A stretch of DNA of 64,000 nt from Desulfobacter postgatei 2ac9 (lineage in GTDB: Bacteria; Desulfobacterota; Desulfobacteria; Desulfobacterales; Desulfobacteraceae): the NCBI RefSeq assembly GCF_000233695.2, contig NZ_CM001488.1, forward strand, positions 1,048,792-1,112,791, read 5' to 3'. A program made the translations under genes and the position numbers. Below are positions 26,942 to 52,590 of this stretch, piece after piece. The stretch's first letter is position 1; each line of letters begins with the position of its first letter. The notes beneath the pieces were generated by a model. The model made no database searches, was not told the DNA's origin, and worked only from the letters and a program-made list of their open reading frames with translations.

Positions 26942-26957
26942 TTGCTTGTCCTCTAAT

Positions 26958-29900: not shown

Positions 29901-30209
29901 TTTCCGTGCCCGGCGCTGTTCCCAGTGACAGCGGAACCGGCCGGCCTGGGATTCAAACAGCACCTCGGCGTAGCATTCACCGGTCTGGCGAGACATAATC
30001 TCATTTCCACTCTTGGTGATTTTTCCAAGGCGGGGCGTGGCGCCATACAGGGCCAGACAGATGGCATCAAGAATGGTCGACTTGCCCGCACCGGTTGGAC
30101 CGGTCAGGGCAAAGATACCGTTGGACACATATTCGGGATCAGTGAAGTCTATGACCCATTCACCGTAGAGGGAGTTGAGGTTCTTAAATCGCAGTTCAAG
30201 GATTTTCAT
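26958..30209 (-). CDS. sbcC: SbcC exonuclease subunit (Rad50-like SMC ATPase)
   Basis: 1083 residues. N-terminal Walker A ALTGPTGAGKSTILDAICLALYG (about 33-55, with the P-loop GPTGAGKS), long coiled coils broken by a zinc hook CPLC (about 536-539), and a C-terminal ABC signature NLSGGESFIVSLTLALGLS with Walker B LFLDEGFGTLDEE. With SbcD it makes the nuclease that opens hairpins and processes double-strand ends. It is separated from sbcD by a four-helix-bundle gene, which overlaps its ATG by four bases. The C-terminus after SHVSALKERI is conventional for SbcC. Confidence 0.95.
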   Translation of the reverse strand: MKILELRFKNLNSLYGEWVIDFTDPEYVSNGIFALTGPTGAGKSTILDAICLALYGATPRLGKITKSGNEIMSRQTGECYAEVLFESQAGRFRCHWEQRRARKKAEGNLQDQEHQIADDVTEKLIETKKSLVGGLIEEKTGMDFDRFTRSILLAQGGFDTFLKADVEQKSKILEQITGTEIYSEISRRVHERQRDEREKLNLLNAETSGIVILEPEQEKEIQDDLAAKQKQETELTGKATETGKAITWLTTIDNLKKEILSLTDEATKLEADTEAFKTERAKLEQAVKAASLDGTYVSVTSLRKQQADDQTALKTAEAALPELETSANTQAEALKATEQITLKSKEDLKTAAPLIQKIRSLDQKIAEQTKTVSEGADACTKEAAKIGAEKQTRVKEQEKRTAAEKTLEAAELYLKENARDEWLISGLAGIEEQFVNLFTRQQEITQKETDLKKADTAVANAAKKLEKAARQCSLKKQALATTGKKLQQGKDALSELLGDKLLREYRTEKETLLREMAFIKKIEELEDHRSKLQDGKPCPLCGSTEHPFAKGNVPVPDEIEQKIGPLTKLIDTADEQEAAIKKLEQAETTARKNLNDGEKLQTDAANDKKAAEKTLTALKEILAKLRTGFDEMKLAVSGKLQPLGITEIPESEVEALLKSLKSRLKAWQEQAKLKTDIEKQIADIDSELKRLDAVINTQVKALTEKQENLERLKKELTDGTDERKKLYGDKKPDDEEGRLNKAITDAENAEKKARDLNTERQQKLTTAKTHVDSLKRRIEQRAPELKKAETDFSAALIPAGFADEKSFLEARLPYEKQESLASRAKALDDAGTELNAKQKDRETRLATETAKKLTDKTLGELAPQFKADEESLKTLRDALAGLKYRLSENTAAKERIKQKQSAIDAQKKECARWEKLHGLIGSADGKKYRNFAQGLTFELMVSHANRQLEKMTDRYLLIRDEQQPLELNVVDNYQAGEIRSTKNLSGGESFIVSLTLALGLSQMASRKVRVDSLFLDEGFGTLDEEALETALETLSGLQQDAKLIGIISHVSALKERISTRINITPVSGGRSSMSGPGCTRVGI

Positions 30210-30583
30210 GATTTTTGAACTCTGATTTTAGATTTTTGATTCTGCTGCGAAGTTTTGATTGAGGAAACGAATATAGCCGTCAGTTCATCGGCTTCTTTGA
30301 GTAAAGGTTGCACCTTGGATTCGGGCAGCAGGTTACCTTCAATAATTAGCTCAAGCCGGAAACAGGTTTCGTCTGCTTCTTCCGCCACAATACCAAGTTT
30401 TGAAATAAATTCAGCCTTTGATCTTCCCCGGCAAGCTGCTCGGTAGTTGGCACCCACAGAAGTCCCTGATCGGATAATTTGCCTCCCAATGGCAATTGCA
30501 GACGTTGTCTTAGGCAGGGCATCAACCAAGTTCATGATCCTTAGTGCAAATTGCTTAGTGCGATCCTTAAGCTCCTGTTCCAT
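30206..30583 (-). CDS. Four-helix-bundle protein (S23/IVS family) between sbcD and sbcC
   Basis: 125 residues. Signature parts are FALRIMNLVDALPKT, IGRQIIRSGTSVGANYRAACRGRSKAEFISKLGIVAEEADET and a LxELxx helix typical of the S23 ribosomal-intervening-sequence family. Function is unknown. It lies exactly between sbcD and sbcC and the stop overlaps the sbcC ATG. The last dozen residues (NQKSKIRVQKS) are encoded by an A/T-rich repeat (ATCAAAAATCTAAAATC type), and a similar repeat covers the gap upstream. The unit therefore looks inserted into an older sbcDC pair. Confidence 0.85.
   Translation of the reverse strand: MEQELKDRTKQFALRIMNLVDALPKTTSAIAIGRQIIRSGTSVGANYRAACRGRSKAEFISKLGIVAEEADETCFRLELIIEGNLLPESKVQPLLKEADELTAIFVSSIKTSQQNQKSKIRVQKS
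30211..30247. repeat. A/T-rich repeat, left flank of four-helix-bundle gene
   Basis: Written TTTGAACTCTGATTTTAG then TTTTTGATTCTG on the plus strand. It supplies the final codons of the four-helix-bundle gene. A related repeat lies at 30590-30625. Confidence 0.5.
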
Positions 30584-30589
30584 AAATCA

Positions 30590-30625
30590 GCATTCCTAAA
30601 TCAAAATTCAAAAATCAAAATTCAT
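30590..30625. repeat. A/T-rich repeat, right flank of four-helix-bundle gene
   Basis: Reads CCTAAATCAAAATTC then AAAAATCAAAATTC on the plus strand. It spans the gap between sbcD and the four-helix-bundle gene and provides the sbcD stop (last codons ...NEF). Confidence 0.5.
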
Positions 30626-31907
30626 TCACGTCTTCTTCATGGAGAGACTTGATTATTTCGTTGTAGGAGACCGTCAGTTCCTCCCGGTCTTCATCCGGCA
30701 CCTCAAAGGCATCCAGACAGCGGGTGAAAACATCCCCGGCATCCAGATCATCAAGGGTTTCATCTTCAGCGACAGTACTGATCACCCGGTCCATGCCGCG
30801 CCGGTTTTTAATCCGCCTGATTTCCATGGCAGAGTCGGCCATCGCCTCGTCGAGCATCTTGCGCAGGTTGCCGATGATGTCGCTGCCGGTGTATTCAATC
30901 TCAAGCCAGGCAGCGCTTTCTCTCTTTTTGAGCGCCTCCAGTTTTGTATGGATATCATCCAGAGACCCGACAATGCGGACCAGCTCCTGAAAACAAGGCA
31001 CAGGAAGTTCCTGGATTTTTGGCGTGGTACTGTTGAACTCTATGAGTACGACCTTTTTTTTCTGAGTCGCTTCGCCGTAGCCCATCGGGATGGGCGAACC
31101 ACAGTAGCGGATGTGCTCCGCGCTGCCGACCGCCTGGGGAACATGCAAATGCCCGAGGGCGAGGTAATCGATTGCCGAGGGGAAAACTTCCGCACCGACA
31201 TGGGCCAGCGACCCCACATACAGCTCTCGGACACCATCACCGTCAACCGTCTTACCACCTGCCGTGAACAGGTGGCCCATGGCAACGATGGGAATCTGGG
31301 ATTGCGGATTTTTGATTGCGGATTGCCGAATTATTTCCTCGCGTTTGCGCTCGGCGATTTTAACCACTTCGGCATAGTGTGCCTTGATCCCTTCGACCAG
31401 TTTCCGATTCTTATCATCAATCGTCTCACCGGGTTCAACAGTACGCACATCCTTATCTCTCAGGTACGGAATCGCACAAATGATTGCAGATTTTTCAAGG
31501 TTGATTGCATTGCCTTCACAATCCGCATTCCGCAATCCAAAATCTAAAATCGGAATGACCTCATCCTCCAATACATCGGTCATGGAGCCGACCACATAGA
31601 CATTCAGCGCTCGAAGCAGTTCCTTTGGTGCATTCAGAAATGACGGCGAATCGTGATTTCCGGCAATGACCACAACATGACGGCAGCAGGATGCCGCAAC
31701 CCGGCACAGGAAGCGATAGTAGAGCTCCTGTGCCCGGTTGCTGGGGGTGCTGGTATCAAACAGATCACCGGCAACCAGCAGCGCATCGACCTTTTCATCT
31801 TCAATGGTCTGAGCCAGCCAATCCAGAAACGCTGAAAACTCCTCATAACGCTTCCTGCCGTAAAGGGACCGGCCTAAATGCCAGTCTGATGTGTGAAGGA
31901 TTTTCAT
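30615..31907 (-). CDS. sbcD: SbcD nuclease subunit (Mre11-like), with two in-frame insertions
   Basis: 430 residues from ATG 31907 (MKILHTSDWHLG). The calcineurin-like phosphoesterase motifs are DWHLG, AGDLFD, AGNHDS and MGHLFTAGG. The in-frame start at 32000 adds only repeat-encoded residues and is rejected. Two segments do not look native: PILDFGLRNADCEG (about 118-132) and RQSAIKNPQSQIP (about 192-204). Both are encoded by GGATTGCGGA-type repeats. Removing them leaves normal SbcD text (for example ending PIVAMGHLFTAGG). It works with SbcC on double-strand ends; catalytic residues look intact. Confidence 0.93.
   Translation of the reverse strand: MKILHTSDWHLGRSLYGRKRYEEFSAFLDWLAQTIEDEKVDALLVAGDLFDTSTPSNRAQELYYRFLCRVAASCCRHVVVIAGNHDSPSFLNAPKELLRALNVYVVGSMTDVLEDEVIPILDFGLRNADCEGNAINLEKSAIICAIPYLRDKDVRTVEPGETIDDKNRKLVEGIKAHYAEVVKIAERKREEIIRQSAIKNPQSQIPIVAMGHLFTAGGKTVDGDGVRELYVGSLAHVGAEVFPSAIDYLALGHLHVPQAVGSAEHIRYCGSPIPMGYGEATQKKKVVLIEFNSTTPKIQELPVPCFQELVRIVGSLDDIHTKLEALKKRESAAWLEIEYTGSDIIGNLRKMLDEAMADSAMEIRRIKNRRGMDRVISTVAEDETLDDLDAGDVFTRCLDAFEVPDEDREELTVSYNEIIKSLHEEDVNEF
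31293..31335. repeat. In-frame repeat inside sbcD (copy 1)
   Basis: Plus strand shows CTGGGATTGCGGATTTTTG then ATTGCGGATTGCCG. It encodes the non-native RQSAIKNPQSQ segment of SbcD without a stop. Inverted relative to copy 2. Confidence 0.65.
31508..31550. repeat. In-frame repeat inside sbcD (copy 2)
   Basis: Minus strand shows TTTTAGATTTTGGATTGCGG then AATGCGGATTG. It encodes ILDFGLRNADC in SbcD, in the opposite orientation to copy 1. Confidence 0.65.
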
Positions 31908-31921
31908 TGAGCCTCCATTTC

Positions 31922-31996
31922 TAACCACGAAAAACACGAAAAGGGTTGGAACCACGAATGAACACGAATGGACACGAATAATTGAACCACGGAAGG
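31922..31996. repeat. ACCACGAAT repeat between sbcD and OLD gene
   Basis: Several tandem-like units AACCACGAA-AAACACGAA, then AACCACGAATGAACACGAAT and AACCACGG. This is the same family as copies at 33.8, 36.9, 37.3, 38.5, 41.0 and 41.4 kb. It is upstream of sbcD, where it may hold the promoter or only be spacer. Confidence 0.8.
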
Positions 31997-32040
31997 ACAT
32001 GAAAGCGTCTTATACATGTTAAATATCTTTTGAGATTTCG

Positions 32041-33756
32041 TTAGTCATTAGATCTTTTTTCATCAGCAAAACATGATTCAACCTTCGCACAGAAATCACC
32101 TATTTTTGCCTCGTCAATTTGATTCTCAGAATAACAATAAAGAAGGTGTTGAGGTTTCCTGTGAGGCGAGCCGGGGGGAGTGACGCCAAGAAATGTTTCA
32201 AGATCTTTTGTAAGCGGAACAATATTCTTCGTAAAATCACTATTTTTGGAATCGGCAATTAATAGATTTAGCTCCTCATGCTCATTTTTGTTTTCATCAT
32301 CGTCATGCAACACCGAATGGTGAACACCGAGTGCACTGAGCAGATTCATAAAACGATGGATGTTGTATTTTCCTAAGCAGTCCAAAATGTAGATACCTTG
32401 CGGCAAGGTCAGCTTTTCATCATCAAGCAAACGATTTATTAACGCTGTTTCACTTGGACCTTCAACTAACAAAACATTCTGCGCAAAGAACATCCCTGCA
32501 CGATCCGGATTAAGCCAGAGAAAATATTTCACGGCTTCCATCTCGGGCTTTAGATCTGCTTCCTGCATAGTTTTTTTTACTTTCGCATATTTATCAGCGA
32601 CCTGTGCAATGGCCCGGTTGGCATCAACAATGGTGTCCCACTTTTCTTGATCGACCTGAAAAGTGTTGATGACGCCGGCTTCTCTTCGGGTTCGAATTAT
32701 TGTGGGTATCCTGCCTACATTGCGGCTTACAAAATGAGCGGAATGTGTGGAGCAAACGATCTGCCAGTCCTCTGCTTCACTGACTCTAATGAGATTTCTG
32801 GCAAGGTCATCCTGTTGAGGAGGATGGAGAAACGCTTCCGGTTCTTCAAAAAGAACGAGATTGAGAGAGGGAGTAAAATCTTTTGTTTTCTTGGAAGCTT
32901 TCTGAGGCACATACTTTGCACCTAACTGAATCAATGAATAGATGAAATGGCGTTGAAATCCCGATCCAAAGTATTCAACACCTTGTGACTTTTCGTGATA
33001 GTCGTCTCGGATATCCCAGCCAAGCATTGATTTGATAATCTCTGCTGTGGATGGTGTAGAAAACTTCAGATTAAACTTAGTTTGCCAAGGCGAGAGCAAA
33101 CTATTCAGGTCACCCTCAAAGCTCGATAAAGACCGGTTGTCTTCCGTTTTAATTGCACGAACACTGTCTGCAAAGGTGGTGACGCTATCCGTTAATGACT
33201 TATACGCTTCGCTGCCCTCGACTACATCCGCCATGATGTTTGTAATGAGGTCACGCAAAGCCGAAGGGCAACTTAGTTTTGTGTGCTCATCAACTTTGCT
33301 GATGGCAGGGATATAGATTAAATCGCCAAACTTACCACTGGAAACATTCTTTGCTCCATAAAAGGGTTCGTTTGATAATGTTCCATCAGATTTATACCCA
33401 AGAATTGATCCAGCAGCATTTTTACCATCATGCAATTTCTCTTTTGTCAGGAAAGATTTCCTGACTTTCAGGGTCATTTCAGGCGTTTGGTACTCCTCTT
33501 TTAATGAACTTTGTTCCCCATCAATTAGCCCAAACGTCAATTCAACCCATGATTCTTCGTCAGTTGATCCCTTAAGAGGAAAGTCGCTGTCTTTTTTAAA
33601 TTTGAATCCGTCCTTTTCGTAAAATGCCCGAATACAGTCAATAACGGAGCTTTTTCCGCCATTGTTCGCACCAACCAATAAGGCATAGTCATGAAAATTC
33701 ATAGACGCATCAATGATGCCCCGAAAATTATGGATTGTGACGTGTTTTAATTTCAT
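32041..33756 (-). CDS. OLD-family ATPase/TOPRIM nuclease
   Basis: 571 residues from ATG 33756 (MKLKHVTIHNFRGI). Walker A in VGANNGGKSSVIDCI (about 28-42), ABC-like Walker B LVLFEEPEAFLHPPQQ, His switch STHSAHFVS, then a TOPRIM-like core starting VLLVEGPSETALI. OLD nucleases cut DNA and act in phage defence (P2 Old, GajA). A longer frame to 34032 crosses an intergenic repeat and is rejected. It follows the type III restriction subunit by about 90 bases containing a repeat, and is probably part of the same island operon. Which defence role it plays is inference. Confidence 0.87.
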   Translation of the reverse strand: MKLKHVTIHNFRGIIDASMNFHDYALLVGANNGGKSSVIDCIRAFYEKDGFKFKKDSDFPLKGSTDEESWVELTFGLIDGEQSSLKEEYQTPEMTLKVRKSFLTKEKLHDGKNAAGSILGYKSDGTLSNEPFYGAKNVSSGKFGDLIYIPAISKVDEHTKLSCPSALRDLITNIMADVVEGSEAYKSLTDSVTTFADSVRAIKTEDNRSLSSFEGDLNSLLSPWQTKFNLKFSTPSTAEIIKSMLGWDIRDDYHEKSQGVEYFGSGFQRHFIYSLIQLGAKYVPQKASKKTKDFTPSLNLVLFEEPEAFLHPPQQDDLARNLIRVSEAEDWQIVCSTHSAHFVSRNVGRIPTIIRTRREAGVINTFQVDQEKWDTIVDANRAIAQVADKYAKVKKTMQEADLKPEMEAVKYFLWLNPDRAGMFFAQNVLLVEGPSETALINRLLDDEKLTLPQGIYILDCLGKYNIHRFMNLLSALGVHHSVLHDDDENKNEHEELNLLIADSKNSDFTKNIVPLTKDLETFLGVTPPGSPHRKPQHLLYCYSENQIDEAKIGDFCAKVESCFADEKRSND

Positions 33757-33770
33757 CAGATAAAACCCTT

Positions 33771-33837
33771 TCGTGTGCTTCGTGCTTTTCGTGGTTCTAA
33801 AAGATATTGGTGTCCATTCGTGTTCATTCGTGGTTCC
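33771..33837. repeat. ACCACGAAT repeat between res and OLD gene
   Basis: On the minus strand reads GGAACCACGAATGAACACGA then ATGGACACCAAT and AACCACGAAAAGCACGAAG. Two units face the same way. Same family as the others in the island. Confidence 0.8.
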
Positions 33838-33844
33838 CTTTAAA

Positions 33845-36832
33845 TTAAACGTACTTCCCTGAAAAATCCTCAAATGCATTGGTAACGGCGAACTCAACCT
33901 CTTTGCCCAGAGCTTTGAAGTGTTCCTTGCCGCATGCGATCTTGGCTTTTTCAGTTGGGCGTAACGCATCGGTGAATAAGGTGCCTTTGGTTTCAACAAC
34001 AAAGTAAAGCTTCTCTTTGCCATCCACATCAATCAATACGGCCCAGTCCGGGTTATAGGTGCCCAGCGGGGTGTCGATTTTAAACCAGTCCGGGAGCTTG
34101 GCGTAGAGCTTGATGTCATCGCTGCGTTCAAAGGCGGTGGCAAACTCCAGCTCTATATCGGAATCGTAGACCACATGGTCAAAGACCGATTTCCGGCTTT
34201 CAACCATGTTCTTCTGCAGGTAGCCAAACAGCTCGTTGTCGCTTAACAGCTCCTGAGCGTAAAAATGTTCATCACCGATCTTGTGGTATTTAATTCCGTC
34301 CACCACAAAGAGACGCATCTGGTGCTGGATGATGGTTGATACCTGTTCGATGAATTTTTGCGGGTTGTTTTTGAATGACTCAAGGCGGCCACTGTCGTTG
34401 ATAATCCTAACGATTGTCCGGCGGGTCAGGTTGGTTTCGTTCTGGAGATAAGTAATCAGATCCGGCAGCTCAAAAGATCGTGACTCGTAGACGCTGGCTG
34501 TTTCCTGAACCTGTTCCGCGTGAACGCCTCCCCGGTCAATTTCAGCCTTGGCCTTTCGATAAATAAACCTGGCTTTGCCCACCTGCAGATTGGCTTTGAT
34601 CTCTTCAGCGCATTTAGAGGCAAGTGCCTCCACATCAAAACTCACTCTGAATGTGGTCTTGTATTTGATTCGGTCCCATAGTTCTTTGAACTCCGGGCTT
34701 AAAAATACGGCCTTATTCAGCGACACCTTCTTCTTGTCGTCACGGTTCTTGATATTGAGATTGCCGGAAACTTTCTTCAGCACCGCAGCAATTTGAGGTG
34801 CGTGTTCTTTGAATTCCTCGGGCAGTTCCAACTCACCTCTTTTCAGTGCTGTTTTCAATAAATCCTGAACCTTGCCTTTGGTGTCAATATATCCGGTGGT
34901 TTTCAGGTGATCCCACAGTTTTTTGGAGGCATCGACACCCAGATATTCGTTGTTGTAGTCGTCAATCGGAACAACGATGTTGGCAAACAGGTGCTCTTCA
35001 ACCACGCCGAATTTAATGCCTTCTTCCTGCTCAATCTCTTTCTGGAGCTGTTCGGCAAACTTCTCATAGGATTCATTGGCCATAACCGTAAGGGTATTCA
35101 CTTCAAACCCGTGAACCCGCTCACCATCCTGATTGACGCATATACGCAGACCCCGGCCGATTTCCTGCCGTTTCTTGATAACTGAATTGGTTTCGTTGAG
35201 CGTACAGATCTGGAATACGTTGGGGTTGTCCCAGCCTTCTTTCAGCGCGGAGTGGGAGAAGATGAACTTAAGTTTTGAGTCAAAGCTGAGAAGTTTCTCC
35301 TTCTCTTTCATGATCAGGTTGTAGGCGCTCTCATCCGCTGCAGTGTTACCGGAGGCATCCTTCAACATCTCGTTACCAGTAGCGTCTTTCTTTTTATCGA
35401 CGGCAAAATACCCGTTATGCACACCGGCGGCCACCGTATCCAAATCGGCCCCTTCAAAGAGCGTGTTGTATTTAGGTTTGCGGATTGCCCGGGCATACTC
35501 CTCTTCAAACATCAGAGCGAATTTGCCCTTTTGCGGATTGCCGTCTTCATCGTACCAGCGGTAGTTGGCAACCCTGTCGATAAAAAACAGGCTGAGGACT
35601 TTGATGCCCTGAGGCCGCAGGCGCATTTCTTTATCCAGATGTTCCTCAATGGTCTTGCGGATCTGCAGGCGCTTGTATTCATCCGGGTCGACTTCGCCGA
35701 TGGCCTGACCCAGTTTCAGGATCTCCGGGTTGCTGGTGAAGCTGATGTATTCATTGCCTTTTTCGCAATAGATATCCTCGATGATGTAGCCATCATAGAT
35801 GTCACGACCACCACTTTTTTCGAGTAAGTCATCTCCGCTTTGTACGGTAATTTCTTTTCTCTTGATTGAACCTTTGCTTTGAAAGTCGATCTCTATTTTA
35901 GCGGTGATCGGGCTCTTCTTGTTGCTTACGCTCAGAAGCTTTATATAGGCTTTGTTGTGGCCGTCTTTGACTTCAACTCCGGCAACTTCAATCTGTTTAA
36001 CCAGCTTTTGCTCATAGGCATCAACGGAATCCAGTTTGTAGAGCATGTGATGCTTGTCGATATGAGTGGCGGAGTAACGCAGCGTGCAGAGCGGATTGAG
36101 TGAGCGAATAGCCTCTTTACTCTTTGACGTGGTATCCACGCTCTGCGGCTCATCCACAATGACAATCGGGTTGGTTTCCTGAATGTATTCAATCGGCTTA
36201 GCCCCGGTCATCCGGTCATGGGACCGGTGGATAATATTCGCCTTATTTTCTTTTTCCGGATCAGTGAAGCTTTTTCGGAAGGCATCGATATTGATCACCA
36301 TGATCTGGATATCCGGACTGGTGGCAAAGTTTCTTACGTCGGAAAGCCTGCTGGAGTCATAGACGAACGCATCGAAAGTCACATTGTCATAGAGCTCTTT
36401 AAAGTGCTCGGCGGTAATCTCTAATGACTTGGCAACGCCTTCCTTGATGGCGATGGACGGCACCACAATGATGAACTTGGTGAAGCCGTAGAGCCGGTTC
36501 ATTTCAAAGATGGCGCGCAGATAGACATAGGTCTTTCCGGTTCCGGTCTCCATCTCCACGGTAAAATCCATGGAGTCCATTTTCTCGGAGGGGGCCAGCC
36601 CGTTCTGCAGCTGTATCTTGCGGATGTTTTTGTGGATGTCCTCAGGCAGAAGTTTTAAGCGGTTTCCAATACCCAGATTGTTTTCCATGCCGGGAATGAG
36701 CTGCTGGGTCGTGTATTGCAGCGGAGCCACGGTAAAGTTGGTCTGGCATATCTCCTGACCTTCAAACACTCCGGCAACGGATTCTATAGCCTGTTTCTGG
36801 AAGTCCAGATTCGGGTCAAATTTAATTTTCAT
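33845..36832 (-). CDS. res: Type III restriction enzyme Res subunit
   Basis: 995 residues. Helicase motif I METGTGKTYV (Lys100), DEAD-like motif II VIVDEPQSVD (227-230), a later helicase lobe with QEIGRGLRICV (motif VI), and a C-terminal PD-(D/E)xK nuclease (YNPDWAVL then FVVETKG). It translocates on DNA with Mod and cuts at unmethylated head-to-head sites. Mod is encoded about 1.7 kb upstream, separated by a DUF1016 gene and a broken rhuM. AGG ribosome-type bases precede ATG 36832. All catalytic motifs are present, so it looks active. Confidence 0.95.
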   Translation of the reverse strand: MKIKFDPNLDFQKQAIESVAGVFEGQEICQTNFTVAPLQYTTQQLIPGMENNLGIGNRLKLLPEDIHKNIRKIQLQNGLAPSEKMDSMDFTVEMETGTGKTYVYLRAIFEMNRLYGFTKFIIVVPSIAIKEGVAKSLEITAEHFKELYDNVTFDAFVYDSSRLSDVRNFATSPDIQIMVINIDAFRKSFTDPEKENKANIIHRSHDRMTGAKPIEYIQETNPIVIVDEPQSVDTTSKSKEAIRSLNPLCTLRYSATHIDKHHMLYKLDSVDAYEQKLVKQIEVAGVEVKDGHNKAYIKLLSVSNKKSPITAKIEIDFQSKGSIKRKEITVQSGDDLLEKSGGRDIYDGYIIEDIYCEKGNEYISFTSNPEILKLGQAIGEVDPDEYKRLQIRKTIEEHLDKEMRLRPQGIKVLSLFFIDRVANYRWYDEDGNPQKGKFALMFEEEYARAIRKPKYNTLFEGADLDTVAAGVHNGYFAVDKKKDATGNEMLKDASGNTAADESAYNLIMKEKEKLLSFDSKLKFIFSHSALKEGWDNPNVFQICTLNETNSVIKKRQEIGRGLRICVNQDGERVHGFEVNTLTVMANESYEKFAEQLQKEIEQEEGIKFGVVEEHLFANIVVPIDDYNNEYLGVDASKKLWDHLKTTGYIDTKGKVQDLLKTALKRGELELPEEFKEHAPQIAAVLKKVSGNLNIKNRDDKKKVSLNKAVFLSPEFKELWDRIKYKTTFRVSFDVEALASKCAEEIKANLQVGKARFIYRKAKAEIDRGGVHAEQVQETASVYESRSFELPDLITYLQNETNLTRRTIVRIINDSGRLESFKNNPQKFIEQVSTIIQHQMRLFVVDGIKYHKIGDEHFYAQELLSDNELFGYLQKNMVESRKSVFDHVVYDSDIELEFATAFERSDDIKLYAKLPDWFKIDTPLGTYNPDWAVLIDVDGKEKLYFVVETKGTLFTDALRPTEKAKIACGKEHFKALGKEVEFAVTNAFEDFSGKYV

Positions 36833-36847
36833 GCGGTACCTCCATTT

Positions 36848-36906
36848 TTAACCACAGAAAACACAGAAAAGGTTGGAACCACGAATAGACACGAATGAAC
36901 ACCAAT
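36848..36906. repeat. ACCACGAAT repeat between rhuM remnant and res
   Basis: Plus strand: AACCACAGAAAACACAGAAA then AACCACGAATAGACACGAAT and GAACACCAAT. Covers almost the whole gap upstream of res. Confidence 0.8.
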
Positions 36907-36914
36907 AGCTTTAT

Positions 36915-37268
36915 TCATGGTCGCCTCCTTTTTTCTTTGAGGCTTCGATCTGTTTTATGGCTTTGTCGAAGTCGGATTCGATGCGCTGGGTTTTGTTGAA
37001 CTGTTTCCAAAATGGAAACAGTTGCATCCTTCGACAATTCACCATCTTGATAAATGTTGTCCAAATGCTTCGAAATAGCTGGAATACCTACTCCAAACAA
37101 CTCGGCGATACGCTTCTGCGGCAGCCAGATGGTCTCGTCGTGTAGAATGCACTCCACCTTCACAGCTCCATCGGGGGCCGTATAAAGCAGGAAGTCCGTC
37201 AACTCATCCTTTGTCGTCAACCGCCGTTCTTCCGTGTTTTCAGCGGATTCGTGTTTATTCGTGTTCAT
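36915..37268 (-). pseudogene. Internally deleted RhuM-type gene
   Basis: The 117-codon frame begins MNTNKHE, which is repeat-derived. Next comes a RhuM-like N-terminus: TDFLLYTAPDGAVKVECILHD in part, then TIWLPQKRIAELFGVGI and KHLDNIYQDGELSKDATVSILETVQ. After that the frame changes to unrelated residues. A neighbouring frame in the same stretch reads NKTQRIESDFDKAIKQIE and ends at a stop near 36915, which matches a RhuM C-terminus. The large middle is missing. The junction falls near a 25-base palindrome. RhuM proteins are of uncertain function (some act in islands as regulators). The gene is almost certainly inactive. Confidence 0.75.
36999..37023. repeat. Palindrome at the rhuM deletion junction
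   Basis: AACTGTTTCCA, three A, then TGGAAACAGTT: perfect 11-bp arms. It coincides with the place where the rhuM reading frame breaks, so it could have promoted the deletion. Confidence 0.65.
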
Positions 37269-37278
37269 TCGTGGTTCC
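37246..37278. repeat. ACCACGAAT repeat forming a gene overlap (DUF1016 end / rhuM start)
   Basis: Minus strand GGAACCACGAATGAACACGA then ATAAACACGAATC. In one frame it ends the DUF1016 protein with GTTNEHE-stop; in the next it starts the rhuM remnant with MNTNKHE. The 14-base overlap is the same as at 41.38 kb. Confidence 0.85.
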
Positions 37279-38550
37279 TCCTTGATCCTGAACTGCCGGG
37301 GAATCCTCGTGAGTTGCTTCCCATTCTGCCTGAGCCTCTTCGAGTTGTTTTTTTAAAGCCTCTTTATCGGGAAGATAAAGCTGGTAGGCGGAAGCGTGGA
37401 TGTTGGCGTCCTTTGGTAAGGTCAGTTCAACCAAACGATCATCTTTTGAATGGCAAAGCAGAATACCGACAGTCGGTTTTTCATCCTCCAGTTTTACATA
37501 ACGGTCGAAGTAGTTGACATACATCTGCATCTGTCCAAGATCCTGATGGGTGAGACGATCACGTTTTAAATCGATAATCACATAACAGCGAAGTAGCCGA
37601 TTGTAGAAAACCAGATCGACATAAAAGTGGTCATCGTCAAAGGTGAATCGTTTTTGCCGCGCCTCAAAGAGGAATCCTTTGCCCAGTTCAAGCAAGAAAT
37701 GTTCGATTTTATCAATGATTGCCGTCTCAAGATCATGCTCTGAATATTCTGGTTTTTCCTGCAAACCCAGAAATTCCAGAACATACGGGCTTTTCAAAAC
37801 ATCTGATGGCTTGGCCACTAATTGACCTTTTTGAGCAAGTTCTTTTACACCCGCTTTATCACGGCTCAATGCCAGACGTTCGTATAGGCTGGAGTTGATT
37901 TGACGCTTCAGCTCCCGAATACCCCAGGCATCCTCAATGGCTTCCAGCTCATAAAACCGACGTTCATCCACAGAGTCAATCGTCAGTAAAACCACATAGT
38001 GCGACCAGCTTAACGAAAACCTGGCAGACAGCGTCTGCCAAAAGTTCAGGATATCGGTAGTCGCTCCGATCTCTGATGCCAGCATTGTTTGTGCGTCGGT
38101 TAAGGGAGATGAAATACACCGTTCTATCAGGACTTTTGATTGATTTTGAGATTCGGCAGGCAGTGTCTGCCAAATCTTTTCATACCCTTCATAAAACTGA
38201 CGAAACTGATCTAACGACCTTCTGGAGAAGCCCTTCCCAAATTTCTCTGTCAACTGTTTGGCGAGCTTAGGCATGAGTGTTTTTCCATAGAGTTCTTTTC
38301 TCGATGCACCTGCCCTTTCAAACTCCACGATATACCAGCCAAACAGCCAGTTCCGAACCACCAGCGCAATATCTACAGACTTTGCCGCCTGCGTCTGCAT
38401 GGCGGTCTGCGTCTGCTCAAACAGCCCAATCAAACTATCAAAACCCACTTCCGTGTTTTCCGCAGTGCCCGCCATAGCCTTTGGCGACGGCTGGGTGTAT
38501 TCCGTGGTTGCTTTCTTCTTTCGTGTCTTTTCGTGTTTTTCGTGGTTCAT
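37255..38550 (-). CDS. DUF1016 (YhcG-type) PD-(D/E)xK nuclease
   Basis: About 431 residues. The N-terminal domain contains VVRNWLFGWYIVEFERAG and YGKTLMPKLAKQLTEKFGKGFS, and the C-terminal nuclease has FDDDHFYVDLVFYNR followed by IDLKRDRLTHQDLGQMQMYVNYFD. The D-x-D...DLK pattern fits the PD-(D/E)xK core. DUF1016 genes are frequent in restriction-modification and defence loci. The first about 12 residues (MNHEKHEKTRKK) and the last seven (GTTNEHE) are written by island repeats. The ATG overlaps the mod stop (TGATG). Confidence 0.88.
   Translation of the reverse strand: MNHEKHEKTRKKKATTEYTQPSPKAMAGTAENTEVGFDSLIGLFEQTQTAMQTQAAKSVDIALVVRNWLFGWYIVEFERAGASRKELYGKTLMPKLAKQLTEKFGKGFSRRSLDQFRQFYEGYEKIWQTLPAESQNQSKVLIERCISSPLTDAQTMLASEIGATTDILNFWQTLSARFSLSWSHYVVLLTIDSVDERRFYELEAIEDAWGIRELKRQINSSLYERLALSRDKAGVKELAQKGQLVAKPSDVLKSPYVLEFLGLQEKPEYSEHDLETAIIDKIEHFLLELGKGFLFEARQKRFTFDDDHFYVDLVFYNRLLRCYVIIDLKRDRLTHQDLGQMQMYVNYFDRYVKLEDEKPTVGILLCHSKDDRLVELTLPKDANIHASAYQLYLPDKEALKKQLEEAQAEWEATHEDSPAVQDQGGTTNEHE
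38500..38550. repeat. ACCACGAA repeat at DUF1016 start
   Basis: Minus strand: AACCACGAAAAACACGAAAA then GACACGAAAG and AACCACGGAATACAC. It encodes the first residues of the DUF1016 protein and includes its ATG. Confidence 0.7.
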
Positions 38551-40472
38551 CACAAGCTCCTTACATCGACAATGCCGGCCTGTTTGAGGATCTGAACCGC
38601 ATTGGTTTTGACCACGTCATCTTTGAAGCCGGAGTCCTTGAATACCACCCGCATGATTTCAGGATTCAGCTCATCCTTTAACTCGGCAATGCCTTCGACC
38701 ACTTCAAGGGAGATGGCATCCGACAGGCAGATGATCAGCGCTCCCATACCGATAGAGTAAACCAATTGAGAATTGACAGTTGATAATTGAGAATGATGTT
38801 CATCTTTCATTATCAATTTTCCATTGTCCATTATCCATTCATCAATAGGCAGGGTCAGGTCGAGGCCATACTTGAGCAGGACCTCGTAAAGAACATCTTC
38901 TTCACGGCGGTCGGTTTTGATATTGGAAATATAATCTTCGAGAGTGCGCTCAGTTAGATCAAAGTCGACTTCCCAAGGTTTGATATTGGTGGCGTCGAGT
39001 TTGAATACCTTGAAGCCAAGGTCACCTTCGTACTCAGGGTTCTCTTCCTTGATCTTGGCCCCAGCCCGGCGGATGCGTTCTTTGCTGATTTCCGCAATAG
39101 TTTTATAGCCAGCCTTGAAGGCTTCTGATTTCTCATCGCAGACTTCAGGTAATTGCACCAAAATGTATTTGAAAGAAGTTTCATTGCATGCGTTATGATT
39201 AACAACTGCATGTCCAGTTGTAGCGGAACCAGCAAAAAAATCTAACACAATATCACTTGAGGAAAGATTAGATATCTGAATGATTCTATCTAATAATCGA
39301 ACTGGTTTAGGCCCATCAAAGTATCCTTTGTCATCAAATAGTTTTTTTACTTCTTGGCGACCCTCTTGATTGTGGCCTACTTCCTGATGAAACCATATTG
39401 TATTGGGCCTTAATCCATCTTGAACTTCAGACAAGAATGTCTTCAGTCGAGGAATACCTGACCCATCTTTCCCAAACCATATCCTATTGTCTTCGACCAG
39501 TTCACTAAACCTGTCTCTATTTACGCCCCAGAATCTACCGTCTGGCGGCAGACATTTTCTGCCACTCGGTGTGGTGATTTCATATATCAGCTTTTCTGTG
39601 CCAGATTTTGCGGATAAAACCACTGATGTCCAAGGGCCACGATGGTCATCGTCTGGATTGGTATAGCCATCAGGTATTTCATCTCCCCTTGGTAGTAACT
39701 TGAGCTCCCATGAATCGCCATTGTTGTTTAGCTTTGTTCGTTTTGCGTAGCACAATATATGGTCATGCATCGTCGAAAAATATGATGCGTCATTGGCTCG
39801 TGAGAATTTTTTCTGCCATATCAGGTCGGCGATAAAATTTTCTTCGCCAAAAACTTCATCACAAATTTTTATTAAGTTTGAAGCTTCAGAATCATCGATA
39901 CTGATAAAAATCACCCCATCATCCTTCAGCAGGTTTCGGGCAAGCTTCAGACGTGGATACATCATATTCAACCAGTCGGTATGATAACGCCCACTGGTTT
40001 CGGGGTTGTTCGAGAGGTTGCGGCCCTCACCATCCACCTGACCGGTGATCTCTTTATAGTTTTTAATGTTGTCCTTGAAGTTGTCTTTATAAACAAAATC
40101 CTTGCCGGTGTTGTATGGCGGATCGATATAGATCATCTTCATTTTTTTGTGATAGCTCTTCTGCAGGAGCTTGAGCACTTCAAGGTTGTCGCCTTCAATG
40201 AAAATATTCTGGGTGGTGTCCCAATCCACCGACTCTTCCTTGCAGGGGCGCAAGGTTCCTGTGCTTGGTGTCTGGGCGATCATCCGGGCCTTGCTTTTGC
40301 CGTTCCAAGTGAAGCTGTAGCGTTCATCCCGGTCATCCACAAACGTGCCGAGCACTTCCTTCAGGGCGTCGAAGTCCACCTTGCCTTCGGTGAAGGCTTC
40401 CGGGAACAGCTCCTTGAGTTTGCCAACGTTTTCGGCCACGATGTCCATTGTTTTACCATCCATTTTTTCCAT
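38550..40472 (-). CDS. mod: Type III DNA adenine methyltransferase Mod
   Basis: 640 residues from ATG 40472, which has AGAGAGG upstream. Motif IV DPPY is at 117-120 before motif I DFFAGSATTGHAV (about 405), the beta-class order typical of Mod. Further parts are IFIEGDNLEVLKLLQKSY and an LPEVCDEKSEAFKAGY region. Mod recognises and methylates the site used by Res. Residues about 544-569 (MDNGKLIMKD, then HHSQLSTVNSQL) are encoded by a dispersed repeat that also sits in the DUF4391 gene in the same frame. The insertion lies in the C-terminal third, away from catalytic motifs. Confidence 0.94.
   Translation of the reverse strand: MEKMDGKTMDIVAENVGKLKELFPEAFTEGKVDFDALKEVLGTFVDDRDERYSFTWNGKSKARMIAQTPSTGTLRPCKEESVDWDTTQNIFIEGDNLEVLKLLQKSYHKKMKMIYIDPPYNTGKDFVYKDNFKDNIKNYKEITGQVDGEGRNLSNNPETSGRYHTDWLNMMYPRLKLARNLLKDDGVIFISIDDSEASNLIKICDEVFGEENFIADLIWQKKFSRANDASYFSTMHDHILCYAKRTKLNNNGDSWELKLLPRGDEIPDGYTNPDDDHRGPWTSVVLSAKSGTEKLIYEITTPSGRKCLPPDGRFWGVNRDRFSELVEDNRIWFGKDGSGIPRLKTFLSEVQDGLRPNTIWFHQEVGHNQEGRQEVKKLFDDKGYFDGPKPVRLLDRIIQISNLSSSDIVLDFFAGSATTGHAVVNHNACNETSFKYILVQLPEVCDEKSEAFKAGYKTIAEISKERIRRAGAKIKEENPEYEGDLGFKVFKLDATNIKPWEVDFDLTERTLEDYISNIKTDRREEDVLYEVLLKYGLDLTLPIDEWIMDNGKLIMKDEHHSQLSTVNSQLVYSIGMGALIICLSDAISLEVVEGIAELKDELNPEIMRVVFKDSGFKDDVVKTNAVQILKQAGIVDVRSL
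38762..38842. repeat. In-frame TGATAATTGA repeat inside mod
   Basis: Plus strand begins AATTGAGAATTGACAGTTGA and continues TAATTGAGAATG, ending with CAATTTTCCATTGTCC. It is close kin of 40775-40853. The reading frame passes through without a stop. Confidence 0.75.
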
Positions 40473-40488
40473 GATTAAACCTCTCTTA

Positions 40489-41391
40489 TTACAGGCTCGC
40501 AGCCAGTTGCCTGAGCTCTTGTTCAAACTTCTTGATCTGTGTATTCAGCTCCACCTGCCGGTTAAAAGCCGCTTTCTTCAACTGCCCGCGCAGCTCCGAT
40601 ATTCTTGATTCAATTTCCCGGCACCGTGTTAAACGTTCCAGCCGGTCGACCGCTTTGCCGATGGTAAAGGTCCCGGATAAGACCGAGCATTCGTATCCGG
40701 TAAAGCGATCCGTCCAGGCATTGTATAAAGTCCCGTAGGTCTGAAGCGGCATAGTGTCCCACGCAAGTGACTTTATAAATTGATAATTGACAGTGGATAA
40801 TTGACAATTATTTTCATTTTCAATTTTCAATTCTCCATTCTCAATTGTTACTTTCATCCAGCCGGTGGTATAAAAGCGCTCGGCAACAAAGGCTCCGTGC
40901 TCGGCCTGACTGAAACGCTTGGGAGCGATACTCAGGGCAACAAGATTGGAACCACTAATGGACACGAATTCACACGAATGTATTTCTTTTTTATTGGTGT
41001 CTATTTGTGTTGATTCGTGGTTAAGATAAAAGCCCAGCATCAAGGGATACGGGATGACCCGGTGGATGATCTCGGCAATTCGTTTGTGTCCTTTTTGGGA
41101 ATTCATTTCGATCTGCAGAACCGCCACCTCAAGGTACTCCCGCTCATTGTCTCTGTAGGGCAGAACCGGACAGGTTGATGGTTTCAGGGTGTATTCCCAG
41201 TACACGTTCTTCACGTTTTCCCGAAACAGCTTTTTGTCGCTGACACCCAAAGAAGCATTCTCAAGGAACAACTTTTTAGCCATGCGTTTATGTAAATACG
41301 CAGATTCTGGAAAGCCAATATTTGCAACCACGAATGGACACAAATTTTCACTAATATTTTCTTTATTAAATTCGTGTTTATTCGTGTTCAT
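40489..41391 (-). CDS. DUF4391-type protein carrying three repeat insertions
   Basis: 300 residues. Family-like text includes IGFPESAYLHKRMAKKLFLE, KNVYWEYTLKP, EVAVLQIEMNSQKG, RVIPYPLMLGF, LVALSIAPKRF and a C-terminal coiled coil (REIESRISELRGQLKKA). DUF4391 proteins accompany type III-like methylase/helicase loci, as here, and their role is unknown. Residues 1 to about 24 come from a palindromic repeat, 124-149 (NHESTQIDTNKK...) from the ACCACGAAT family, and about 181-206 (ENGELKIENENNCQLSTVN) from the TGATAATTGA family. All are in frame. It overlaps the SNF2 gene end by 14 bases. Confidence 0.82.
   Translation of the reverse strand: MNTNKHEFNKENISENLCPFVVANIGFPESAYLHKRMAKKLFLENASLGVSDKKLFRENVKNVYWEYTLKPSTCPVLPYRDNEREYLEVAVLQIEMNSQKGHKRIAEIIHRVIPYPLMLGFYLNHESTQIDTNKKEIHSCEFVSISGSNLVALSIAPKRFSQAEHGAFVAERFYTTGWMKVTIENGELKIENENNCQLSTVNYQFIKSLAWDTMPLQTYGTLYNAWTDRFTGYECSVLSGTFTIGKAVDRLERLTRCREIESRISELRGQLKKAAFNRQVELNTQIKKFEQELRQLAASL
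40775..40853. repeat. In-frame TGATAATTGA repeat inside DUF4391 gene
   Basis: Plus strand begins AATTGATAATTGACAGTGGA and ends CAATTCTCCATTCTCAATTG. Matches the mod copy closely over its first 30 bases and encodes a related peptide (ENGELKIENENN, QLSTVNYQF). Confidence 0.75.
40947..41022. repeat. In-frame ACCACGAAT palindrome inside DUF4391 gene
   Basis: Left arm GGAACCACTAATGGACACGA, right arm (minus) AACCACGAATCAACACAAAT. Arms are inverted copies of the family. Protein segment NHESTQIDTNKKEIHSCEF results. Confidence 0.8.
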
Positions 41392-41401
41392 TCGTGGTTC
41401 C
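41325..41401. repeat. ACCACGAAT palindrome giving the SNF2 stop and DUF4391 start
   Basis: Left arm AACCACGAATGGACACAAAT, right arm (minus) GGAACCACGAATGAACACGA then ATAAACACG. The right arm ends the SNF2 protein (GTTNEHE-stop) and starts the DUF4391 protein (MNTNKHE). Confidence 0.85.
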
Positions 41402-44400
41402 TTCCAGCAGAATCAAATACGACACCACTTCAAAGTCATCCATGCCCTTAAAGCTGTTTTTGTTGATTACGGTTCCGCCGGGAGAGAAGAGACTCTCCAC
41501 GCCGCGTTCTTCAGCCGCACCGGTCAGGGCCTGCACGGCGTTGGACAGCAGGTTGCGGTATTGAGACATATCGGAACCATTGCGTGTCAGGCCGGAAAAG
41601 CGGGTTGTGGCTGTGCCATCAACGGACTTTCCATGGATACTCATCTTCTTCAGCAGATCCAGAATCTTTTTGGTTTGAGTGAACTGCAAAAGGACCGATC
41701 CGTCATTTTTTACATAGACCAGATAGTAAGGCGACAAAGCATAGGTGGCGTCTGAAACGGTTTGAGCGCCTTCATTTCTGAGACAGAAAATCACCCCGGG
41801 TGAGAATTCTCCTTTTAAAGAGTCGTTGATGGTGGCCACGGCATAAGCGCCGGAGGGTATCCGCTCCAGTAGATTCTCATGCACTTTTATGTAGTCACTG
41901 AGATCCATACGGAAGTCGTTCAGTGTGAGGTCGGTAATGGAGATGCCACCTTCGACGTCATCAATATCAACCACTTCGTTCTGAAGCTTCTCGAGCTGTT
42001 TGCGGCGGTATTCAAGATCATTCATTTTTCCGGAATCGGTAAACGCTATGACGTTCTCTTCACCGGTGGCCGAGATATCCAGCAGAACCATGCGGCCGGA
42101 AACGCGGGCCTCAAGATTGATGTATTCGTCCAGCTCCATGTTGGGCCAGAAGTTCACCAGTTGGATTTTGTCATTTTTCGAGCCCAGTCGATCAACACGG
42201 CCAAAACGCTGGATGATCCGAACCGGGTTCCAGTGAATGTCATAGTTGATCAGGTAATCACAGTCCTGCAGGTTTTGCCCCTCTGAAATACAGTCCGTGG
42301 CAATCAGCAGGTCAATTTCAGCAGTGAGAGAAGAATCAATTTTGTCACGCTCTTTTGATACCGGAGAGAAGGAGGTGATGATTGAGGCCAGATCTTTGCG
42401 TATGCCGGGTATCTCGGTTTTGTTCTCACCGGAACCGGTCACCAAGGCGGCATAGATTCCCAGCTCCCGCTGTGCCCATTTTGCTGTGTTTTCGTATAGA
42501 TACTTGGCGGTGTCTGCAAATGCGGTGAAAATGATGAGCTTTTTGTTTCCTAAGTTAATCGGATGGGTGACTTTGTAACGAATGAGCTCCTTCAGTTTCC
42601 TGAGCTTTTCATCTTGCGGAGCCTTAACTGCTCGTGCAGACGAAATGAGCTTCTCCAGAATTTCCCGATCCTCCTCAAGCTCTTGTTTCCAGCGAACCGT
42701 ATCCATGTCTTGAATCAGGACTTTGACCTTTTTGCCGACAACAAAAGGGGAAAAGGCGTCATCTTCTATTTCAATCTCTTCGATATCAAACTCTTCGACA
42801 GATGAATTGTTGTCATGGTCCGCAATCTTCTGAATCAACCCTGTTACCTCGCCGAGCAGTTTCTCCAGCGTCATTGTGAAGGAGTTGATAGAGCTTTCCA
42901 TTCGTTTGAACAGGTTAACCCGCATCAAATGAATCAAGCTCTGTTCACGGTCTACCTGTCTGAACATGGAACCGCCGGCCACCTTTCGGTCATACTTGCG
43001 GCTATACTCTTCAGCCTTTTGCGGCAAAACATATTTCAGCGGAGCATAGGCGCTCAGATTAAGCAGCCGAATGTCTCTATTAATACTTTCAAGAGCCGGG
43101 AAGCGTCCCTGTGTATCAATGTCTGTCTTAATATTGACGGGCTTGAGCCTCTCCGGAAATTTTCCGATTTCCGTTACATCATAGTACTTCTCAATATGCT
43201 TTCTGGATCGGGCAATGGTGAGCAGGTCCAGCAATTTGAAATAGTCAAAATTCAAAGTCTCCAGCAGGGATTCGGTGGTTCTTTCGCGCTCAATCAAATT
43301 CAACCACCCATTGAAGCGCGTCTGAGCCATTTTCAGCGTCTGCTCGATGCTGGTAATACCGTTGGTCTTCAATGCGTCGTCCTTTGCCTCAACGATAAAG
43401 GCGACTTGGTTTTTCAGGTCGTTCATCCGGTTGTTTACAGGAGTCGCTGAAAGCATCAGCACCTTGGTTTTTACGCCGGCTTTGATGATCTCGTTCATCA
43501 GCTTTGAATAGCGGGTCAGAGAATCATCCTTGCGGGCCGGGTTGTTTCTGAAATTGTGCGACTCGTCGATAACGATCAGGTCGTAGTTGCCCCAGTTCAG
43601 GGTCTCTAAATTGATCTCCCCGGACATTCCTCGCACACGGGTCAGATCCGTATGGTTGAGGACATCATAATTGAACCTGTCCGAAGCCATGATGTTTCGT
43701 TTGTCATTAACGGTATATAAGGTCCAGTTTTCCCTTAGCTTTTTGGGGCAAAGAACCAGAACCCGGTCATTGCGGAGTTCGTAGTATTTGATGACCGCCA
43801 GGGCCTCAAAGGTCTTACCCAGCCCCACGCTGTCTGCGATGATGCAGCCATTGTAGCGTTCAATTTTATCGATGGCTCCAAGAACGCCGTCCCGCTGAAA
43901 TTTGTAAAGCTTCTGCCAGACCTGTGTGCTCTTGATTCCGGTCTGGGTCTTGATGATTTTGTCCTCATCCAGCTCGCCGATAAAACCCCTGAAGATATTA
44001 AACAGAGTCAGGAAATAGATTTGTTGGGGCGTTTTGTCTGAATAAACAAGCGCAAGAGCGTCCTGAAGAATCGCTTCAAAATCATTGCTGTTTTTTCCGG
44101 AAGCCCACAGTTCGTCAAACCACTTTATAAGCGAATGTGCCTCACCGGAACTGCGAAAGCAGGTGTTCAGATGGTGGGATTCAGATGGAACGATACCCAA
44201 ACCGTCAGTGGTGAAAGATGAGCTGCCCACAATAGCAAGGTACTCATCATTACCGGCGTGAGATAAATGAATAAGATTCTGATGAACCGGTGAAGGTAAC
44301 TTGCGGACTTCACACTTCTGTTTCAGCCATTCCGAGCATTCCCGTGCGATACGAGTAACATCAAGCCGATTCCGAAGACGACGGTCTAAGTGATTTCCGG

Positions 44401-44617: not shown

Positions 44618-44811
44618 TGATCTTCACTCTCTTTAGAACCACTTGCTTTCCCGTCACGGACCCAAATATCGACTTCATCTTTCTTAAATTTCCAAAGACG
44701 GCCGATTTTGTGGGCAGGCATTTTCTTTTTGTTTATCCATGTGTAAACTGTATCTTTGCTGACACCCAGATATTGAGCAATCTCCTCGACTGACAACCAG
44801 CGATCTTCCAT
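44614..44811 (-). CDS. Excisionase-type helix-turn-helix protein
   Basis: 65 residues. MerR/excisionase-like HTH: LSVEEIAQYLGVSKDTVYTWI, KKMPAHKIGRLWKFKKDEVDIWV. Such small proteins bind DNA as regulators of islands or as helper proteins of restriction loci. The stop overlaps the ATG of the SNF2 gene (four bases), so it is the first gene of the leftward operon and may autoregulate it. Start ATG 44811 is followed by a promoter-like AT-rich region. Confidence 0.9.
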   Translation of the reverse strand: MEDRWLSVEEIAQYLGVSKDTVYTWINKKKMPAHKIGRLWKFKKDEVDIWVRDGKASGSKESEDQ

Positions 44812-44974
44812 TTTTTACACCTTTGAAGAGTATAGGGTCAAATTGGTTTAGTTTGTCTTTTTACACGGTGTCTGTTTTTTGTCAATCAGGTTTAGTTGGG
44901 TTTAATAAGGTTTTGAATGAAAGATTGGCATGGATAGTGGAACCGAACTTTAGCGTTTTCCAAAATTGATTCAC

Positions 44975-45090
44975 TTTTTGTTATTTGATGCCTGAAATAT
45001 AAAATTTGGCAAATCATGCTGAGGGGCTTGGGGTGAGGACTATGTCCAAGGTAAGGACCGTTTTTAGGCAAATAAAAAACCCGGACTATC
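44975..45090. repeat. Degenerate direct repeat, left copy, flanking TA pair
   Basis: Begins TTTTTGTTATT, includes TTTGGCAAATCA and GTGAGGACTATG, and ends CCGGACTATC. About 60 % identical to 45796-45912 in the same orientation, with the matching blocks equally spaced. This copy also holds the putative promoter region of the toxin. Confidence 0.55.
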
Positions 45091-45158
45091 CCTGTTATTC
45101 ATATCGGGGCTTGTATATTTTATTTGACTTTCTGTATTCGAACGATTACATATTCAAT

Positions 45159-52533: not shown

Positions 52534-52590
52534 CCAGCAATTCTCATTTTATTCTCGCACAAAGCCTCAAAGGCACAAAAGGCCACAAAG
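52534..52590. repeat. Partial second copy of the MITE-like element
   Basis: CAGCAATTCTCATTTTATTC then TCGCACAAAGCCTCAAAGGC matches the left end of 9164-9295 closely (few substitutions over about 55 bases). The right terminal repeat is missing. Confidence 0.65.

Follow-up and report, generated by a model that had tools for sequence, protein, structure and literature searches.

The island at this locus raises the question of how short tandem repeats came to lie, in frame, inside three genes of a restriction and repair operon, and from where they came. The window analysed is the whole stretch of 64,000 nucleotides at positions 1048792–1112791 of the single-contig genome (3,974,658 bases) of Desulfobacter postgatei 2ac9. 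It carries an island whose outer limits, taken from the stretch common to a second genome of the genus (G003, L217), are 26842–45101; all genes and repeats of the island given below by coordinate lie on the reverse strand. The original prediction had placed five repeat segments in the genes for SbcD (30615–31907; Pfam Metallophos and SbcD_C), the methyltransferase Mod (38550–40469; Pfam N6_N4_Mtase) and DUF4391 (40489–41391; PF14335, 5.4e-65), and all five are there. Overlooked were six decamer copies at operon junctions (from 31908–31995 to 41317–41403) and, between sbcD and sbcC, a gene of the S23 family (23S rRNA intervening-sequence four-helix bundle) with heptamer arms. We propose, with moderate confidence, that the in-frame segments are gene-less forms of cassettes that carry an S23 or a GxxExxY gene, that they were inserted by replacement of native DNA and that they were imported with the island.

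Relatives of the island were found in G003 and G013, both of the same genus, and on plasmid pHRM2a of Desulforapulum autotrophicum, which holds the closest named relative of the island genes. Pieces of G003 matching at 78–91% identity span the window from 26842 to 45101. The flanks of the sister islands found no match in the window's flanks (0.9 and 0.65 kb compared for G003, 3.7 and 6.6 kb for G013), and the island therefore appears to move. Aligned with the window, G003 lacks all the segments, G013 that of Mod, and pHRM2a those of Mod and DUF4391. Measured against G003 in gene orientation, with limits set by the alignment anchors chosen, 63 nt stand in place of 30 in SbcD (31494–31556), 74 in place of 20 in the Mod heptamer palindrome (38764–38837; a net gain of 18 amino acids), 73 in place of 31 in the DUF4391 heptamer palindrome (40780–40852), 87 in place of 18 in the DUF4391 decamer palindrome (40939–41025) and 87 in place of 66 in the decamer palindrome at the helicase/DUF4391 junction (41317–41403). 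Native DNA of 18–66 nt has been replaced at these five gene-less ('solo') sites, and at all five the net change in length is a multiple of three. No target-site duplication, a feature of miniature inverted-repeat transposable elements (MITEs), was evident by eye in the alignments with the sister islands. At the DUF4391, junction and Mod sites pHRM2a has the same length as G003, and at Mod so has G013, which gives good support for the native state there. A second SbcD segment (approximate limits 31290–31335) was seen in the alignment and lies outside the measured length comparison; both SbcD segments are common to G013 (95.97% identity over 1266 nt) and absent in G003. The DNA between them (31339–31473) is only 62% identical to G003, against 91% on both sides, and the SbcD repeats mark the borders of a divergent segment that was possibly exchanged.

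By unit length the repeats fall into two classes, TGATAATTGA and GGATTGCGGA having 7-bp units and ACCACGAAT 10-bp units; the three families first described thus make up two classes. Periods of 7 or 14 score best in SbcD, in Mod, at the S23 arms and in one of the DUF4391 segments, a period of 10 in the ACCACGAAT copies. When RNA folding was compared with 200 shuffles, three of six elements folded clearly better (z −2.6, −6.9 and −2.8, the value of −6.9 belonging to the helicase/DUF4391 junction). In each of five segments measured for reading frames (four in genes, one at that junction) a single frame of the three on the gene strand is free of stops and is the frame used, and the peptide QLSTVN is indeed encoded by both the Mod and the DUF4391 repeats. 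At 41317–41403 and 37230–37285 the repeat closes the gene upstream in one frame (GTTNEHE, then a stop) and opens the downstream open reading frame (ORF) in another (MNTNKHE); at the first of these sites the stop is that of the helicase and the start that of DUF4391. For the selection for harmless insertion suggested originally, purifying selection on the survivors is enough, since every one of the five elements is stop-free in only one frame of three.

The junction of sbcD and sbcC differs between the three genomes of the genus. It is empty and measures 30 nt in G003, holds the S23 gene in the window (30206–30583; PF05635, 4e-16; solved homologue PDB 2rld, 3.8e-20) and holds a PDDEXK_3 (GxxExxY) gene in G013. 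The window cassette occupies 424 nt in place of the 30 in G003. Its S23 gene is flanked by inverted heptamer arms: the upstream arm (30584–30633; TTTTGAT/TTTTGAA units, period 14/7) overlaps the end of sbcD, and the downstream arm (30209–30241), recognised as an inverted repeat, codes the S23 C-terminus and stop next to SbcC (26958–30209; Pfam SbcC_Walker_B). The GxxExxY gene at the G013 junction has its N-terminus, C-terminus and stop encoded by a AATCCGCAGATT-type repeat. A second pair of filled and empty sites comes from the type I locus L028 of the D. postgatei genome, where the decamer arm is present twice, in direct orientation, with a GxxExxY gene in between. In G019 (L171) the corresponding site carries a single palindrome instead of the gene, and its two sides are 88.6% and 93.2% identical. 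GxxExxY genes match the PD-(D/E)XK family PDDEXK_3, which makes a nuclease a possible product; no solved structural relative was found by sequence. On plasmids, 15 of 17 cassettes with annotated neighbours are co-directional with both. Seven of 12 S23 plasmid cassettes lie between genes that we take, partly from annotation, to be defence genes, for example drmD/pglX, csx2/cas1 (L321) and cas2/cas1 (L326). S23 also occurs at one and the same junction, DUF1156/Swt1-HEPN, in Chloroflexota and cyanobacterial plasmids (L315, L317).

Whether a repeat class belongs to a gene family was examined in 118 genomes of the phylum, in which S23, GxxExxY and ParE were sought (S23 was present in 70, GxxExxY in 42) and 30 among the best loci per family, one per genome, were taken. 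With 160-bp flanks and a local match score of at least 14 between the two sides, inverted or direct, 23/24 S23, 23/28 GxxExxY and 0/23 ParE loci were positive once truncated or N-bearing loci had been dropped (6, 2 and 7 of 30 respectively), compared with 3.4, 7.7 and 3.5% of random positions in the S23, GxxExxY and ParE loci; the score was reached by inverted matches at 22/24 S23 loci. Flanks defined by ORFs gave 21/25 for S23, 19/27 for GxxExxY, 0/23 for ParE, 1/20 for YhcG and 46/378 for other ORFs, part of them perhaps having a flank in common with a cassette (5, 3, 7 and 10 of 30 loci dropped for S23, GxxExxY, ParE and YhcG). A period was called in this set at a score of at least 12. For S23 (50 flanks) the best period was 7 in 24, 14 in six and another in six, the score of one flank (L263) being swollen by a run of N although a real array precedes it; for GxxExxY (56 flanks) it was 8 or 9 in 10 and 14 in one; and for ParE (46 flanks) it was 13 in two, with none in 44. 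The plasmid set comprised 12 of 25 S23 records, picked for species spread rather than at random from Chloroflexota, Bacteroidota, Cyanobacteriota and Spirochaetota, and all seven GxxExxY records. Here, with no score threshold, a best period of 7 or 14 was found in 24/24 S23 and 0/14 GxxExxY flanks and one of 8–10 in 10/14 GxxExxY flanks, and the match between flanks exceeded the 95th percentile of the locus itself at 11/12 S23 and 5/7 GxxExxY loci. The segments of the window sort in the same way. Its four heptamer segments match S23 flanks in 1, 3, 6 and 8 of 37 loci and GxxExxY flanks in 0, 3, 0 and 0 of 35, while none of its five decamer segments matches a single S23 flank (0 of 37 for each) and their matches to GxxExxY flanks number 3, 3, 4, 5 and 5 of 35. 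Among ParE flanks, two of the nine segments find a match in 1/23 loci and the others in none. All these counts are not mutually independent. The association of repeat class with gene family is firm in the samples examined.

We propose the following course of events. In one kind of cassette, 7-bp units in inverted arrays would enclose an S23 four-helix-bundle gene, and in the other, arrays of 8–10-bp units a GxxExxY (PD-(D/E)XK-like) gene; a solo element would most likely be the cassette minus its gene, that is an arm, a short loop and the inverted arm. Both solo and gene-bearing forms would have entered the restriction and repair island, the solo forms replacing 18–66 nt at the five sites measured, and this probably happened earlier, in a repeat-rich host. 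Those left by selection would be insertions with an open frame, or junction copies whose arm gives stop and start codons. The island would later have entered the present genome, which is otherwise without these particular repeats save at one restriction locus. Under this account the solo elements would derive from the cassettes, and S23 and GxxExxY would take part in their movement, the proteins perhaps binding or cutting the arrays. More tentatively, S23 and GxxExxY proteins may define two families of mobile elements that cross phyla, each with a unit length fixed by its protein (7 or 8–10 bp), with heptameric and ACCACGAAT-like repeats as their gene-less copies, replacement of the target and stop and start codons in the ends.

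Several observations weigh against this account. No movement was seen, and that either protein binds or cuts the repeats is something we infer. The Mod element folds weakly (z −1.5, equalled by 16 of 200 shuffles) and both SbcD segments fold no better than 200 shuffles of themselves (z 0.57 and 1.00). Five of 28 GxxExxY loci and one of 24 S23 loci fail the flank test, two of seven GxxExxY and one of 12 S23 loci on plasmids score no higher than the control drawn from the same locus, and no clear period was found in 45 of 56 GxxExxY and 14 of 50 S23 flanks of the phylum set. The repeats of the window also border other genes (YhcG, ATPase), and of 150 ORFs that neighbour the decamer elsewhere, in other genomes, only four are GxxExxY. 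The genome has five S23 and five GxxExxY matches of its own, and at least one of these S23 loci (L259) bears other heptamer arms, an example of further heptamer arrays in this genome, so insertion may have taken place within this lineage. Lastly, repeat sequence tracks protein sequence weakly: among loci with arrays (4 of 38 S23 and 1 of 35 GxxExxY loci without them being dropped), Mantel tests of array against protein similarity gave rho 0.113 (p 0.014) for S23 and 0.171 (p 0.005) for GxxExxY, with partial p values of 0.019 and 0.006 when background composition was controlled. Such a weak correlation would be expected of arrays that change quickly in sequence but retain their unit length. Strong co-evolution of array and protein sequence was considered and set aside, the correlation for S23 lying mainly at 60% identity or more. 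A search for an A+C or purine bias of the arms gave no clear rule.

The main rival, which we judge unlikely, is that the repeats came first: arrays would spread by replication slippage, template switching or break repair and recombine among themselves, with the S23 and GxxExxY genes as passengers that recombine in wherever existing arrays provide homology. Replacement of native DNA with no duplication visible by eye is what break repair with filler DNA would leave, homologous recombination could make use of the direct repeats on either side of the L028 cassette, and the decamer stands beside many unrelated genes in many taxa. What such a process does not predict is the pairing of 7-bp arrays with S23 and of 8–10-bp arrays with GxxExxY, or the lack of arrays at ParE and YhcG genes. 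The same two control families (0/23 and 1/20) speak against the further idea that the arrays are general cassette boundaries for any accessory gene.

The distribution of the repeats points to import with the island. With up to three mismatches, ATTCGTGTTCATTCGTGGTT has 17 sites in the genome, compared with none for its reversed control, and all 17 lie in two clusters, one being the island and the other a 1.2-kb part of a type I restriction remnant. This second decamer cluster (L028; genome positions 1762537–1763694) contains an HsdM remnant (249 amino acids compared with 518 in L171) and GxxExxY, Fic and Bro-N genes with decamers between them. TTGACAGTTGATAATTGA has nine sites with up to three mismatches; the two with no more than one are both in the island, and the other seven have three mismatches and are near noise (one for the reversed control). 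The 27-mer GGATTGCGG has a single site with up to three mismatches. The original prediction had named absence of the repeats elsewhere in the genome as a point that would speak against elements like those of Rickettsia; such absence was found in part, the decamer occupying two loci and the heptamer patterns the island only, and the likely cause is that the repeats were imported with the island. Being confined to the island and one type I remnant, the decamer probably came with the island, and we infer that a repeat-rich host was its source. The decamer was also scanned for, with up to one mismatch, in 59 genomes (the present one, 18 congeners that are 56–100% complete, and others of the family and order, with several genomes incomplete): five have it, and 17 of the 18 congeners lack it, G013 being the only one with it. 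In the genomes and islands compared here, the repeats thus seem to be travellers with the island.

Farther afield the exact 20-mer is widespread. It occurs in at least 120 stretches of a species collection, mostly metagenome-assembled and open to binning error, whose titles name at least 10 phyla, among them Verrucomicrobia, Planctomycetota, Acidobacteria, Chloroflexi, Hydrogenedentota, Kiritimatiellaeota, Lentisphaerae, Neomarinimicrobiota, Cloacimonadota and Proteobacteria; for some of the names the rank of phylum is assumed. It is found in 15 viral-contig stretches as well. Further decamer clusters occur in G049 (L173–L175) and at L172. Two repeat-rich genomes of the same order and of one genus, G046 and G449, have 38 and 70 exact 18-mers of the decamer and are candidates for the native or a donor-like state. 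A DNA search for plasmid copies of the solo elements gave weak or partial matches only. Elsewhere in the window, CTCGCACAAAGCCTCAAAG repeats form an inverted pair at 9184–9259 (region 9176–9259), with a further copy at 52546–52591, and resemble GxxExxY-type arms found elsewhere.

It is improbable, in our view, that the arrays are in essence regulatory, serving between operon genes as sites for a translational regulator, as ribosome-binding sites or as RNase III stems, with the copies inside genes as by-products. The arms do provide start and stop codons and are found immediately before gene starts, the plasmid cassettes are mostly co-directional with their neighbours, a translational role is proposed for TAACTGA heptamers in PMC4679880, and PMC4990558 describes cleavage of the stem of an S23 intervening sequence by RNase III in vitro. 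Five copies lie inside coding sequence, however, and the sister operon of G003 manages without repeats at the corresponding places. That the segments are protein-coding palindromes kept for a new peptide function, as the original prediction allowed, can be given very little credence even though the frame is open every time and QLSTVN is identical in two proteins: homologues exist without the inserted peptide, the DUF4391 site is a loop that varies in length among repeat-free homologues too, the shared QLSTVN follows from related repeats being read in their sole open frame, and no evidence of a function was found for the inserted peptides.

Gene-less palindromes beside a gene-bearing form are known from repetitive extragenic palindromic (REP) sequences and their associated RAYT genes. 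The same likeness holds for MITEs, whose inverted ends are those of an autonomous element; the window segments resemble S23 or GxxExxY flanks by class, and the two SbcD ones do not fold better than shuffles. The differences are that no target duplication was seen, that the ends are tandem arrays and that no transposase was recognised among the cassette genes. The short tandemly repeated repetitive (STRR) sequences are tandem, degenerate heptameric repeats present in many copies; the segments of the window have 7-bp units, and their two heptamer patterns do not recur in many copies in this genome. For in-frame insertion the closest match is the Rickettsia palindromic elements, described in PMC10969869 as short palindromic elements of several families, about 150 bp long, inserted in frame into unrelated genes. 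The window shows the same in three genes, and this part of the original comparison holds, as do the homologues without the segments; a genome-wide repeat family is not found here. The window elements also differ in their length of 63–87 nt, their tandem 7- or 10-bp units, their confinement to islands of the genome and their gene-bearing counterparts.

For the S23 cassette the nearest relative in arrangement is the intervening sequence of the Coxiella 23S rRNA gene. PMC4990558 describes an S23 gene between terminal inverted repeats of 28 bp, with tandem GACAGAT heptamers before the ORF and cleavage of this Coxiella element by RNase III in vitro; the window cassette has this anatomy in another place. 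The window S23 gene differs in lying between sbcD and sbcC and not in a 23S rRNA gene, and in having gene-less forms inside coding sequence. The TAACTGA heptamers of Beggiatoaceae and cyanobacteria resemble those of the window in their 7-bp units, patchy occurrence over distant lineages and position near gene starts, and PMC4679880 regards them as horizontally spread and suggests that a protein binding them could be the mobile component; the arrays of the window, unlike these, form inverted pairs and also surround S23 genes. PMC4679880 mentions neither S23 nor any of the terms four helix, 23S rRNA and intervening. A literature search, which took in few subscription papers and no preprints, returned no report linking S23 or four-helix-bundle genes to such repeats beyond the Coxiella paper, nor one linking GxxExxY to them, a passage of PMC8934634 included.

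S23 and GxxExxY genes occur in many genomes without a known role outside rRNA intervening sequences, and heptameric and decameric repeats have been described so far without a known mover. If each class does belong to one family, these two puzzles would merge into one question, namely whether the protein binds, cuts or copies the array, and the small genes that slot into and out of defence operons would be explained. The empty and filled sites of the congeners are offered for study of the insertion chemistry, which here replaces the target.

The remaining decamer copies, assigned by pattern and period, punctuate the middle of the island. One lies upstream of sbcD (31908–31995) and is followed by an OLD-like ATPase gene (32041–33756; Pfam AAA_15 and OLD-like_TOPRIM), a slot filled by another gene (AAA_13) in G003. 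Two more gene junctions (33757–33840 and 36839–36912) enclose the gene for the type III restriction subunit Res (33845–36832; Pfam ResIII and RE_endonuc). Next comes a RhuM-like remnant (36915–37268) whose start, MNTNKHE, is coded by the repeat; it has no Pfam match itself and was recognised by its intact G003 homologue (369 amino acids, PF13310). The element at 37230–37285 provides this start and the end of the YhcG/DUF1016 nuclease gene (37255–38550; Pfam YhcG_C), which is missing at the corresponding place in G003, between Mod and the RhuM-like gene. The N-terminus of YhcG is repeat-encoded, with decamer-type repeats at its start (38480–38553). Beyond DUF4391 lies the helicase gene (41378–44617; SNF2-related/Helicase_C by Pfam, supported by synteny with pHRM2a). 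In the G013 stretch (L170) the start of Res survives in an ORF of 174 amino acids, neither DUF4391 nor the helicase is among the ORFs, and the space from Mod to the end of the island contains a piece of a PDDEXK_3 (GxxExxY) gene. Within the phylum, eight of 395 genomes, the present one included, have DUF4391 homologues, which at no more than 36% identity are too distant for empty sites; a search of the plasmid collection with DUF4391 yielded pHRM2a. For SbcD, G003 was the better reference and plasmid homologues were left out of the alignment, and the fetched loci L219 and L221–L224 were left out of the analysis.

A specific tie of the repeats to defence was considered and found no support. Two sets of 150 ORFs, one near the 20-mer and one distant, were drawn from 207 and 481 ORFs, none longer than 900 amino acids, in 135 loci. 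In the lists of the 25 commonest families no defence family was commoner near the repeat, NCBIfam having been applied to the near set alone, and the genes near the 20-mer in other genomes include housekeeping genes. Outside the island, at 7573–7620 of the window, two perfectly inverted 23-bp arms enclose a 2-nt loop, with A/T runs in the middle of the repeat.

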